A stretch of DNA of 42,304 bases, taken from positions 1-42,304 of the forward strand of contig JANXBW010000034.1 of NCBI GenBank assembly GCA_025060325.1, written 5' to 3'. This stretch comes from Thermoguttaceae bacterium (GTDB lineage Bacteria > Planctomycetota > Planctomycetia > Pirellulales > Thermoguttaceae). The position numbers were made by a program, and so were the translations under genes. The notes under the pieces were generated by a model. It did no database searches. It saw nothing but the letters and a program-made list of their open reading frames with translations, and was not told the origin of the DNA. Of this stretch, positions 25,202-30,053 are shown piece after piece; position 1 is the first letter of the stretch, and the number at the start of each line of letters is the position of its first letter.

Positions 25202-26523
25202 GCTCGTAGACCCTTGGCGGAGTTCTTCCGTCTAAGCTCCGGCAGGTGCGCTCTCAATTAATCGCCGATCGCGGGGTAGAAATACCCTGAGGCACCGGCG
25301 CCTTGGCCGGCTGTACTTGTTTATCGGCAAAACCCGGCCTATTGGGGCAAACGGCCTGCTACGACGGGCGATTATTCGGGAAGTGACGGTCTCCGCTTCG
25401 TTCCATCTGAGCCAAGAGTATCGATTTTGCTGGCCGATTCCCCGCCGGTAGCTTCCCCCGCTGGGCTGCTAGCTCTTGCGGATCATGGGGTTAGGGAGGG
25501 TGCGAAAGCCTGGGCGGAGCGAATGAGGGTTGTCTCCTGGGCTTTCGTGGCGTTGCATCGGAGTCTTGCAGGCTTTCGTGCGACTCCACCGCCTTTCGCC
25601 GATGACAAGCACGATCGAACGGTAAGCCGGAGGCTGCCGACTGCTTTCCCGGGCACCTCGGAAATCCTGAAATTTACTTTGCAGAAGCCGAGCCTCTTAA
25701 ACCCGTCCCTTCGCACACGGAAAGTGCTTTCTCCTCGCTCTTGTCCGGCCGAACTCCGGCTCTATCGCTCGCGGATTTAATCGGCCGATTTTTCCCGGCG
25801 ATGGCCATCGCCTTCTCCCCGCGGAGCCAAACAATCGATCGCGGGATCATAAATCGCTTGAACAAGGCCCCCTTGGGCAACAAGTAGCGGGCCGGCCGGC
25901 TCTGCTCAAATAGTCGTGGTGGCCCGTCAATGAGGCCGCCCGGAGTGCCTTCACTGAAAGCGTGCTCGGGCGCAGGCAGTGCACTTATCCGGGCCATTAG
26001 CGGCAAGCGCGCGGTGTTTGGATTTTCCCGGCGAATCGACAAACCAACGGACCCGCGGGCAATCAATCTCAGAAGCTTCGGTTCAACATCGGGCCGGAGT
26101 GTGGGCGATTGAATCTGGGGGGAAACCGTCCGTTTGCGAACGATTGGTTTAATAACAAACGTAGTGAATGCTTGGCCAGGTGACACTCTGGACTAGTTTT
26201 TCGAAAGTGTGCCGGAATCGTTCGTTTTCGGAAAAGATTTGTTGTTTCTCGACTTACCGGGAAAATCCGTATTGTTCCCGCCGTCGGCGAAGCTCGCGCA
26301 TTGTTGCGCCCCACCACAACGGGGTATAATTGCGCAAGAACGGATAGGTTATCAACTGAGTTATTGCCATGTTCCCTTTATGGCCAATGCGACCTCCGCT
26401 TAGCCCGAGTATGCTCAGGGCACCGAAGCAAGATTCGCTTGTCAGGGCCAGCTTATCCAGATTATCCTTCCGGCGACATTGTCCCACCTGTCGAACGAGC
26501 GATTTGTTAAAGGACCAGCGGCT
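25202..26523. other. Long gap upstream of the PAS-GAF regulator
   Basis: 1.3 kb without a supported gene. Open frames here (for example minus strand 25674-26186) have erratic composition and no family features. The last 350 bp are AT-richer than the rest and hold the regulator's promoter at 26301-26330. No RNA gene was recognised. Confidence 0.45.
26301..26330 (+). promoter_or_regulatory. Promoter of the PAS-GAF-receiver gene
   Basis: TTGTTG, an 18-bp spacer and a perfect TATAAT. The predicted start near 26337 leaves a leader of about 185 nt before the ATG at 26524. Confidence 0.6.
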
Positions 26524-28068
26524 ATGAACTGTATCGCTCCCCATTTGCAGACACTGACCATCGAAGATCTTTATAAGATTCTTGACCGGATTGATGCGGC
26601 AGTTGCAATTGTGGACGCGGACAAGCGCATTCAATGGGCCAATGCCCGGTTCCAGCAGTGGTTTAACCAAGGAGGCACCCTGGAAGGTGCCTCCTTCTAT
26701 TATGTGCTTGGCGATCCGCAGATTGAGGGACCGGTCTTTGCTCCGTTTCAAGAGGCAGCCAACTCAGAAGCTCCGGTTCGCTGCACCCTGCTCCTGCCCG
26801 ACCGTCGCCACGTCCAGCTTGATGTTGTCCGTTTTGATAGCAGTTCAGAGTCTGGGCCGCGGTTTCTCGTTACGCTGCAGGATGTGTCTGAGGAACGGGC
26901 GGTGGCGGAGCGAATCGAGAGAATCTATCGGGCGGGGGCAGAGCTGACGGCCATTCGGCCGGACTTCCTCGTCTCCATGACTTACGAAGAACGCTTGGCC
27001 TGGGTCGAGGCTTGCATTATTCAGCACCTGACGGGTCTTTTTAATTTCGATTCCGTGGAAATACGTCGGCTAGATCGGCGCACGGGAGAACTGGTCCGCA
27101 TTCTTTCGATCGGGATGACGCGGGAGGCGGAGGCCCGAAGGCTGCGGCCCAATTTGGAAGGAGCAGGCATTACCGGCTATGTGGCGGCCACGGGCAATAC
27201 GTACATTTGTGAGGACACCCTCCTTGATCCGCGCTATCTGCCCGGGGCCGAAGGCGCCCGAAGCTCGCTTACGGTGCCCCTCCTATTTGAAAACGAAGTG
27301 ATTGGCACGTTTAATGTGGAAAGTAAAAAGCGTGCCGCTTTTTCACAAGAGGATGCCCGCTTCCTCCAGATTTATTGCCGCGAGCTCGCCCGGGCCTTGG
27401 TAATGCTTGATCTTCTCGAAGCGCAGCGGCACCTGGCCGGCGCCTGTAAGGTGGAAGAAATCCACAGCCGGCTGGCCGATCCTGTGGATGAAATCTATTC
27501 GGAGCTGGTGAAGCTTCAGGAAATTGTTCGCACCAGCGGGACAGTATCCGCCGAGGTCCTCCACCAAAGTATCCAATTCCTTCTTGGCCATGCCCAGGGC
27601 CTAAAGAAGCTTGTCTGGGATATCGGCCAGGAGCTCCCGCCAATCCCGGCCACGCTTCAGGTGGCCCAACAAAAGGAGGCCTCCGTTCTTCACGGCAAAC
27701 ATGTGCTTGTGGTGGTCACTGATCCCAATTCCCGGATGCAAATCAGGCAAATTTTGGAGCGATTGGGCGGGGTGGTGACAACCGTGGGTACAGGGCGCGG
27801 TGGCCTCCTTATGCTGGATCACGAGGCCTTTGATGCGGTGGTGGTTGAGCTGCATTTGGCCGACATGGAGTCCAAGGAATTTATTCAGTCGGCTATCGAG
27901 CAAAAGGGCTTTTCGCCACACCGACTGGTGCTGATGTCAGAATACGGCTATGACCCGCATCATAACGTGGTGGCTGCTCGGACTCGTCAAGTAAACGCAA
28001 TCTTCCTCAAAGAAAAGCTCTCCGAACAGCTCGTCCCCAAATTCGTGGAAGTCCTGTCCGCACGTTAG
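26524..28068 (+). CDS. PAS-GAF-pseudoreceiver signalling protein
   Basis: A 514-residue cytoplasmic sensor/regulator. A PAS-like domain (about 12-125: ILDRIDAAVAIVDADKRIQWAN) leads into a GAF domain (about 155-295: GITGYVAATGNTYICED, SSLTVPLLFENEVIGTFNVES). A helical segment (about 300-370) lies where a kinase dimerisation helix would be but has no catalytic histidine and no ATPase domain follows. A receiver-like domain (about 392-512) ends the chain. In the receiver the usual phosphorylated Asp is Glu442 (FDAVVVELHLADM), only one N-terminal acidic residue remains (D400 in VVTDPN), while Ser472 and Lys496 are kept. The start is the ATG at 26524, with AGGA 9 nt upstream. The partner is unknown; it probably acts by phosphorylation-independent contacts. 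Confidence 0.85.
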   Translation: MNCIAPHLQTLTIEDLYKILDRIDAAVAIVDADKRIQWANARFQQWFNQGGTLEGASFYYVLGDPQIEGPVFAPFQEAANSEAPVRCTLLLPDRRHVQLDVVRFDSSSESGPRFLVTLQDVSEERAVAERIERIYRAGAELTAIRPDFLVSMTYEERLAWVEACIIQHLTGLFNFDSVEIRRLDRRTGELVRILSIGMTREAEARRLRPNLEGAGITGYVAATGNTYICEDTLLDPRYLPGAEGARSSLTVPLLFENEVIGTFNVESKKRAAFSQEDARFLQIYCRELARALVMLDLLEAQRHLAGACKVEEIHSRLADPVDEIYSELVKLQEIVRTSGTVSAEVLHQSIQFLLGHAQGLKKLVWDIGQELPPIPATLQVAQQKEASVLHGKHVLVVVTDPNSRMQIRQILERLGGVVTTVGTGRGGLLMLDHEAFDAVVVELHLADMESKEFIQSAIEQKGFSPHRLVLMSEYGYDPHHNVVAARTRQVNAIFLKEKLSEQLVPKFVEVLSAR

Positions 28069-28688: not shown

Positions 28689-30053
28689 GTGGTCGTGTGG
28701 TTTCTGGTGCTATGGGTCTTATTTGGACATGTAGCCATTTGGGTAGCTGTTTATAATCGTCTGCATAGTTGGGGCATTCCCCGGGCGATGGTTTTGGCCG
28801 GAAGTGTGGTGGCGATTTTCCTCGTTGTGGCTGGCCCGTTGACCTTCGTTTGGGGGCTATACACTGGCCTTTGGGGCTGGCTGGACGAACAACTTAGCAC
28901 ATGGCCCCAGATTTCGTCAACACTTTTTGGGGCGGGATGGTTCCCTGTGGCCGCCCTTTACGCCCTGGCCTGTGTCGCCAAAGCCACTTCGGTGATCTAC
29001 TGGTGGGTAAAGGGCAAGCTTTCCCCGCCGCCTGCGGTCCTCCGGCACCATGTGTCGTGGCGGTACCAGCTGCCTCGGGAACATTTATTAGACCATCAAG
29101 CCTCCTGGGGCAATCGCCTCCTTTTACGTCTCCCGGGCAATGAGAGCCTTGACGTCGAGCTTGTTGACCTAGCCGTGGACATCCCCCACCTGCCAGCTGG
29201 CTTGGATCGCCTCCGGATTGTCCAGCTAAGCGACCTCCATCTTTCCGGGCGAGTGCCGCGGGCATTTTTCGAACGGGTTGTGGAGATAGTCAACGATCAG
29301 GACCCAGACTTTGTGTTGCTGACCGGTGATGTTGTGGAAAAGCCAGAGTGCCTCTCCTGGGTGCCGGAGATCTTGGGGGAACTTCGGGCAGAATATGGCC
29401 GATACTTTGTCCTGGGCAATCACGATGTCCTTCTTGACGTCAACAAATTGCGCCGGTCCCTGGAAGATGCCGGCCTTATTGACCTAGGAAACCGCGTGGT
29501 GGAGGTGCCCGTAAGCGTCACCTGGGGAAAGCGAGCCTCTCGGGTGTATCCTCGGCTCTTTGACAAAGAGTCAAGCGATGCTTGCCTCCCCGCCTGGCAA
29601 ACCTTGCCGCGTGTCGTCCTTGTCGGCAGCGAGCGCCCGTGGATCGGCGAAGCCCTCTCGCTAAGCGAGCTTGATGGCCGTCGAGATGGTGCTTTGTTAC
29701 TTGCGATCTCTCACACGCCCGATCAAATCGTCTGGGCACGAAAGGAGGGTATTCATCTTCTCCTTGCCGGGCATCTCCACGGGGGGCAGATTCGGATCCC
29801 TGTCATTGGCCCGATCGTTTCCCCAAGCCGGTTCGGCACCCGGTTGAATGCGGGTCTCTACTTTTGGCCGCCAACACTTCTTTATGTCAGTCGGGGACTG
29901 TCGGCACGGTTCCCGCTGCGCTGGCAAGCTCCACCAGAGGTGACCTGCCTGACACTTCGGGCACCGCAGGGGGCCTCCCATCCCCGCGTTGACTTTCCGG
30001 GAAAGGCTCCGGCCCTTGGAGCTTCAGGTTTCGGAGAGCACTTAGACCGCTAA
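28689..30053 (+). CDS. Membrane-anchored calcineurin-like metallophosphoesterase
   Basis: The 454 residues start with three or four hydrophobic helices (about 2-25, 32-56 and 75-100), followed from about 170 by a complete binuclear phosphoesterase domain: IVQLSDLHLSG (DxH), LLTGDVVE (GDxxE), VLGNHD (GNHD), ISHTPDQI, and LLAGHLHGGQIRIP (GHxH). All metal ligands are present, so it is predicted active, on the inner face of the membrane or the periplasm. The substrate is unknown; YkuE/LpxH-like phospholipid or sugar-nucleotide pyrophosphatases share this fold. The GTG start at 28689 has AAGGAGG six to seven nt upstream. It stands alone and converges on the MBL-fold gene. Confidence 0.9.
   Translation: MVVWFLVLWVLFGHVAIWVAVYNRLHSWGIPRAMVLAGSVVAIFLVVAGPLTFVWGLYTGLWGWLDEQLSTWPQISSTLFGAGWFPVAALYALACVAKATSVIYWWVKGKLSPPPAVLRHHVSWRYQLPREHLLDHQASWGNRLLLRLPGNESLDVELVDLAVDIPHLPAGLDRLRIVQLSDLHLSGRVPRAFFERVVEIVNDQDPDFVLLTGDVVEKPECLSWVPEILGELRAEYGRYFVLGNHDVLLDVNKLRRSLEDAGLIDLGNRVVEVPVSVTWGKRASRVYPRLFDKESSDACLPAWQTLPRVVLVGSERPWIGEALSLSELDGRRDGALLLAISHTPDQIVWARKEGIHLLLAGHLHGGQIRIPVIGPIVSPSRFGTRLNAGLYFWPPTLLYVSRGLSARFPLRWQAPPEVTCLTLRAPQGASHPRVDFPGKAPALGASGFGEHLDR

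Follow-up and report, generated by a model that had tools for sequence, protein, structure and literature searches.

A planctomycete PAS-GAF protein with glutamate in the phosphoacceptor slot of its receiver-like domain

Pseudo-receivers are an already known kind of protein domain, and the evolution of a phospho-switch into something else is a known phenomenon. RitR, ChxR and HP1043 are DNA-binding regulators. DivL of Caulobacter is a PAS-bearing pseudokinase with a dimerisation helix that lacks the histidine; it retains an ATPase-like domain and is not known to contain a receiver. LvrB of Leptospira (8vc9) is a hybrid response regulator which, judged by its entry title, combines long kinase-type helices and a phosphorylated receiver in one chain. 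According to PMC4395418 and PMC12632262, RitR, ChxR, HP1043 and FrzS are aspartate-less or pseudo-receivers, which retain the receiver fold and the lysine, have lost the metal-binding acids and carry another residue in place of the acceptor, most commonly glutamate. A 2025 review (PMC12632262) describes the on and off switching of bacterial pseudo-receivers as a mystery.

The protein described here is encoded in a stretch of 42,304 nucleotides from a Thermoguttaceae bacterium, the whole of which is called the window. It shares with these pseudo-receivers the fold, the replaced acceptor, the lost metal acids and the kept lysine; unlike in RitR, ChxR and HP1043, however, the domain lies C-terminal to PAS-GAF and a kinase-like hairpin, and no output domain was matched. 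Like DivL, it has a PAS domain and a probable dimerisation helix without the histidine, but no ATPase domain was matched in it, and like LvrB it joins kinase-like helices with a receiver in a single chain, but this receiver has no acceptor. PMC12632262 also describes fungal Rim15, where related receivers have Asp or Glu depending on the lineage; Rim15 and the plant pseudo-response regulators treated there are, however, different proteins with other architectures, and the replacement in the present family is not uniformly Glu. A description of this protein or architecture was not found in the literature searched.

Domain layout and active-site residues

The domain order and the identity of the slot residues (Table 1) are established at the level of alignments and a predicted structure. 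The AlphaFold2 model, which was built from 81 sequences and run as a monomer (mean pLDDT 86, pTM 0.53), has the order PAS, GAF, helices and receiver fold, with the strands of the PAS region falling between residues 26 and 120, and with a long helix (275-338) and a second helix (343-370) between GAF and receiver. An in-frame TTG upstream at 26479 is an alternative start of the gene. PF01590 recognises the GAF sensor at 54.2 bits against a cut-off of 22.4, and Response_reg matches residues 394-497 with an E value of 1.5e-4. The latter match scores 22.4 bits, or 25.9 bits in the search of the own genome, and does not reach the curated PF00072 cut-off of 30.2 bits; at E<=1, PF00072 matches all 81 members of set A3, the window protein among them. 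The modelled receiver matched many receivers in VIA over about 120 residues, mostly with an rmsd of 1.6-2.2 A to the solved structures, whereas whole-protein Foldseek matches had a high rmsd and a low TM and were set aside. A preliminary description of this DNA had placed the receiver at 27805-28068, a span that covers only residues 428-514 and the stop codon.

Table 1. Features of the sensor gene and of two other genes in the window
Feature	Position	Strand	Evidence
PAS-GAF-helical hairpin-pseudo-receiver protein, 514 aa	26524..28065	+	ATG at 26524; stop codon 28066-28068
PAS domain, about residues 12-121	26557..26886	+	Pfam PAS_4, E 1.4e-7, residues 20-125
GAF domain, about residues 171-293	27034..27402	+	Pfam GAF, E 2.9e-14, residues 194-292
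Two-helix hairpin, residues 275-370	27346..27633	+	models; VIA; column counts
His314	27463-27465	+	
Ser315, in the phospho-His slot	27466-27468	+	Pro spacing; VIA ranges with HK853, first helix assumed gapless
Pro320	27481-27483	+	
Pseudo-receiver domain, residues 391-514	27694..28065	+	Pfam Response_reg; VIA Z about 18-19
Val398-Thr399, places of the two metal-binding acids in receivers	27715..27720	+	phmmer alignments
Glu442 (GAG), phosphoacceptor slot	27847..27849	+	phmmer alignments to solved receivers
Ser472 (usual Thr/Ser; codon 27937-27939) and Glu473 (Gly in 158/184 rows)	27937..27942	+	column counts
Family loop Gly475-Tyr476-Asp477-Pro478-His479-His480, after strand 4	27946..27963	+	column counts
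Lys496 (kept; codon 28009-28011), Glu497 and Lys498 in place of the usual Pro-Phe	28009..28017	+	column counts
Metallophosphoesterase, N-terminal hydrophobic stretch by eye	28689..30050	+	Pfam Metallophos, E 2.5e-11
ORF of 2468 aa	17512..24915	+	repeated UvrA signatures

Residues 436-448 of the protein read FDAVVVELHLADM. Within them, Glu442 lies under the acceptor Asp of 3crn and of RpfC 3m6m in phmmer alignments, and it ends strand 438-442, the third strand of the receiver in the model, so that the glutamate seen here by the preliminary description is indeed in the phosphoacceptor slot. Its further statements that Ser472 and Lys496 are kept also hold; the acidic pair, which it took to be reduced to Asp400, is gone altogether, since the same alignments put Val398 and Thr399 in the metal-ligand places and Asp400 (constant in 173 of 184 rows) in the position after the pair. 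Glu473, at T+1, crowds the pocket at a position that is normally small. Further departures are Ala at D+4 and Ser at D+8, where 167 of 184 rows have Pro and Gly, respectively, Glu at K+1 (Pro in 174 of 184) and Ile at K-3, the position of Y-T coupling, where only 13 of 184 rows have Tyr or Phe. T+1, D+4 and D+8 are reported to be altered in pseudo-receivers (PMC12632262). With whole-length homology to Asp-bearing relatives, Glu442 and neither metal acid, the domain is, by sequence, a real pseudo-receiver of the aspartate-less type. As far as can be told, Glu442 is not an assembly error, because the nearest relative, which comes from a separate genome (L002, identical to L081; 71% identity), also has Glu. 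On sequence grounds, the other losses (both metal acids, Gly473 to Glu and Pro497 to Glu) point to a general loss of phosphotransfer chemistry rather than to a tuned glutamate.

The hairpin between GAF and receiver most resembles the dimerisation domain of histidine kinases, judged from its model and alignment, with Ser315 in the place of the histidine. Modelled alone, it reached a pLDDT of 86, and the first seven VIA rows were exclusively histidine-kinase or hybrid-regulator entries (LvrB, HK853, DesK and PhoR), led by LvrB, with the DivL structure 4q20 at rank 13; the Z values of these best seven rows (8.4-9.5) are weak and not decisive for a helical hairpin. His260 of HK853 and its Pro presumably fall on Ser315 and Pro320, if the first helix is gapless, and Pro320 is kept in 182 of 184 rows. 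Neither a HATPase_c domain (no match at E<=10) nor a phospho-His in an H-box was found in the window protein, HisKA gave no match in it, and neither of the two domains is among the 25 of 58 families listed for the 81-member set A3. Of five relatives from outside the class, two match HisKA below its cut-off, with E values of 0.015 and 0.021. Five of the eight outside-class relatives (L280-L284) have a run that resembles an H-box but carries a residue other than His in the slot, and in L285-L287 the Pro of this run is also gone. The preliminary description is thus borne out in placing the helices like a kinase dimerisation domain and in finding no ATPase. Its claim that the kinase histidine is missing is right in effect, although His314 stands one residue before the slot. 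His314 is present in 131 of 184 rows, including the window; it was invariant in a first alignment of 26 rows and was considered as a phosphorelay residue, an idea that was dropped on its frequency in the wider set and its lack of coupling to Asp442.

Family spread and acceptor loss

The class is here taken to be Planctomycetia from taxonomy and record titles, which presumably also corresponds to the class code of the genome search. Of 60 genomes searched, that of the window among them, 58 gave matches, which extend over more than 400 residues in 51. Altogether 235 of 248 class genomes have the sensor family at E<=1e-20, nearly all of them in single copy, and 12 of the 13 genomes without a match belong to one taxonomic family, f23. 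The phylum sample gave 16 of 149 genomes at E<=1e-40, eight of which lie outside the class. Among named relatives, the nearest come from an uncultured Thermoguttaceae bacterium (71%) and from an uncultured Thermogutta species (44%). All 119 genomes of the window's own taxonomic family match at E<=1e-10, but this loose cut-off lets in unrelated receivers; the four genomes of its genus g22 have only weak matches (1e-11 to 1e-16), and the sensor gene itself may be missing there.

Orthologues were compared for conservation of Glu442, a check proposed in the preliminary description, and they gave the outcome, orthologues with Asp, that this description had named as refuting. A conserved glutamate that imitates phosphorylation is not supported: the acceptor is Asp in 155 of 184 distinct rows, with E in 10, A in 10, N in 3, Q and G in 2 each, and S and P in 1 each. 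In the window's family, whose loci, divergent ones included, were sought on purpose and are not a random sample, 27 of 66 rows are non-Asp; in the remainder of the class this holds for 2 of 78 coded rows, and among rows known by name only it holds for none of 40 (a named locus that repeats a coded one, as L143 does, goes under the code). Within the window's genus the residue is E in the window and in L002 and Q in L003, and all four rows of the sister genus g25 (L047, L260-L262) have A. A separate clade of the same family has Glu in seven of seven rows (L051, L053, L268, L269, L273-L275) and would be a better test ground for phosphomimicry than the window. Three rows of genus g9 (L270-L272), whose receivers are 92-93% identical to one another, have Asn, Ser and Asn, and L080 of the same genus has Asp.

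The two metal positions differ in their constancy. Position 398 is Asp in 178 of 184 rows, whereas position 399 is Ala in 94, Glu in 27, Ser in 22, Asp in 7 and another residue in the rest; it is acidic in 34 rows, and all five classical receiver residues are kept in only 28. Position 399 corresponds to the direct metal ligand according to PMC12632262, in whose true receivers both metal positions are always acidic; by this standard, most members of the family would be pseudo-receivers already, whether or not they have Asp442.

All eight relatives outside the class have both metal acids, Asp, Thr, Lys and a GYDPxHS loop, and the canonical receiver is therefore taken as ancestral; since most relatives have Asp, Glu at the acceptor is a derived state as judged from the alignment. 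On a careful mixture-model tree of 50 rows, from which the active-site columns were excluded, the acceptor changed between Asp and non-Asp at least nine times, twice outside the window's family (L252, L258) and seven times inside it. Nine changes were also counted on a quick tree of 69 rows and ten on a tree of 143 rows, the latter drawn with a simple model and with long branches pulled together near the root. The direction and the minimum number of the changes are shown for the rows sampled: the mixture-model trees omit the longest rows (L051-L055, L269, L276, L277 and others), whose losses lie outside the count of nine, and rows below 330 residues, like roughly two thirds of L081-L160, are absent from all trees. 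As the outside relatives are canonical, decay of the receiver appears to have been stepwise: within the class the second metal acid has for the most part gone, and the acceptor has changed repeatedly. The window's genus is joined with g25 at 98/94 support, mainly on the 50-row tree, where the rows read E, E, Q, A, A, A, and this grouping suggests that a single loss probably preceded both genera, with later drift of the residue between E, Q and A.

Conserved residues, selection and neighbourhood

The most constant residues of the receiver include His480 and Leu395 (182 of 184 rows each), Asp398 (178) and Asp477 (177), all of them above the acceptor. Of the 29 non-Asp rows, 23 retain Asp477 together with His480, and the loop motif is absent from the 19 other receivers of the own genome (of 23) that were aligned through the loop. 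Because of this constancy and this absence elsewhere in the genome, the Asp477/His480 loop is proposed as a candidate working surface. Tyr227 and Cys229 of the GAF domain (27202-27210) are nearly constant as well (183 and 173 of 184 rows) and possibly mark a ligand or redox site.

Comparison of the window protein with L002 shows GAF as the most conserved part (90% identity), with 62% for PAS, 65% for the hairpin and 70% for the receiver. The dN of the receiver is 0.22, with dS beyond saturation, and the receiver is still under purifying selection after the loss. Its identity compares with 74% for the rest of the protein, and the difference lies near the mean of 2637 Asp-Asp pairs (receiver minus rest -0.027, sd 0.063). 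Relative to GAF alone, the receiver (-0.205) falls just under the 5th percentile of these pairs (-0.199) and the hairpin (-0.256) under the 1st (-0.172), and both are somewhat relaxed. Being ordinary against the rest of the protein and relaxed against GAF, the receiver is maintained under a changed constraint. Five single losses were compared with an Asp sister (receiver minus rest: L143 -0.10, L017 -0.13, L038 -0.24, L258 +0.02, L252 +0.05; two of these pairs fall outside the 60-80% range of the null), and only L038 lies beyond the 1st percentile (-0.19).

A partner kinase or anti-sigma factor, for which the preliminary description had suggested searching the neighbourhoods, was recognised in none of the 15 further ORFs of the window that were scanned, and the commonest neighbour is a metallophosphoesterase. 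A first count placed it downstream of the sensor gene, on the strand of that gene, in 87 of 174 loci; after negative-gap overlaps, taken as shadow reading frames, had been dropped, it was found in 63 of 126 scorable tree rows (17 further rows have too little flank to score), which makes it the most widespread but not a constant neighbour. Two of the shadow frames, placed by position, overlie the sensor gene, and other neighbour clusters occur in up to 22 loci. Non-Asp rows are mostly without it (20 of 24 scorable). A functional partnership was considered and rejected, as seven independent pairs on the tree gave about two in the same direction, none in the opposite direction and five without a difference. 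The third member of the genus has only a short metallophosphoesterase match (L062:5028-5444), about 4 kb from the sensor gene. Further downstream genes in the window encode a beta-lactamase-fold hydrolase, an enolase-family enzyme and an anthranilate-synthase-like component I. The 2468-aa ORF, in which two stretches of the UvrA interaction domain occur, reads as a tandem UvrA fusion with a C-terminal extension.

The own genome has 21 HATPase_c matches, 18 of them above the cut-off and none on the window's contig. A PF00072 search gave 27 matches, which correspond to 26 receiver places, as two are pieces of one; the acceptor is Asp in 23, the exceptions being the window (Glu), L311 and L312. 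The last two (L311:1411-1704, L312:1501-1836) are weak, below-cut-off receiver-like domains that, read by eye, seem to lack the acceptor Asp, and L312 resembles the receiver part of CpaE-type proteins. The published rates, about 4% aspartate-less receivers and 6-13% pseudo-receivers (PMC12632262), are common enough to make a single acceptor loss unsurprising; repeated loss within one family stands out, that family having been sampled on purpose.

Possible function of the protein and meaning of the family

The best reading, which we regard as reasonably probable, is a sensor-gated scaffold with a phosphorylation-independent pseudo-receiver; the ligand-gated scaffold named in the preliminary description fits best. 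The protein would be a soluble and dimeric sensor-scaffold, whose GAF (and PAS) domain may bind a ligand or a redox or metabolic cue. The bound cue would alter the long helix together with a dimerisation hairpin that probably derives from a kinase, and the resulting change would reposition the C-terminal receiver fold, whose surface, including the conserved Gly-Tyr-Asp-Pro-x-His loop, may contact a partner. Phosphorylation of Asp may still tune the receiver in most relatives. No such tuning is expected in the window's lineage, since the acceptor and both metal acids are gone, and control in vivo would come from the upstream sensor domains or from partner binding.

Alternatively, Glu442 could be a true phosphomimic, with a longer side chain that contacts Ser472 and Lys496 and keeps the receiver in its active form, leaving the protein constitutively on. 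The two residues are kept, Glu is common to the window and its 71% relative as well as to the seven-row clade, and it accounts for 26% of aspartate-less receivers as the commonest replacement (PMC4395418). The Gln of the third genus member and the Ala of the sister genus mean that negative charge is not kept across the clade, which weakens this explanation despite the Glu shared with the nearest relative; the lost metal acids, the crowding by Glu473 and the Ile at K-3 argue in the same direction. Moreover, PMC4395418 states that exchange of Asp for Glu alone is often insufficient, and that ChxR with its Glu changed to Asp or Ala retained constitutive DNA binding. We consider a phosphomimic unlikely. 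We think it quite improbable that the receiver is a vestige which persists through inertia, or just for folding, and is disappearing from the window's family. Acceptor loss is concentrated in that purposively sampled family, the receiver and hairpin are relaxed relative to GAF, and g22 seems to lack the whole gene; yet dN is well below dS between the window and L002, and the loop pair outlasts the acceptor in most non-Asp rows. There is very little to recommend a role as phosphotransfer intermediate, in which a kinase in trans would phosphorylate His314 or Ser315 of the hairpin: His314 is widespread and kept by the window, but it is one residue off the slot with the conserved Pro at +6 instead of +5, it is absent from 43 Asp442 rows and present in 19 non-Asp rows and so is not coupled to the acceptor, and none of the eight relatives outside the class has it.

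Beyond the sensor-gated scaffold, a broader proposal can be made, which we hold only tentatively and with less than even confidence. Both two-component modules of one core planctomycete chain, the kinase dimerisation hairpin and the receiver, may have become non-catalytic step by step, through loss of the hairpin histidine, then of the second metal acid and finally of the acceptor, the last at least nine times independently, while the GAF signal would continue to reach a partner via an Asp477/His480 loop surface that predates and outlasts phosphorylation. The Glu itself is a lineage state, and more interest lies in the wider pattern, in which the receiver of a widespread gene decayed in steps and repeatedly. 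The spread of the family points to a conserved planctomycete sensor. If the proposal is true, the family would form a natural series in which receivers turn into pseudo-receivers and the intermediates are still alive, and in which canonical, half-decayed and fully decayed receivers stand in the same protein context, in a mostly single-copy gene across the class. Such a series would allow one to ask, by domain swaps between close relatives, what a receiver does without phosphorylation.
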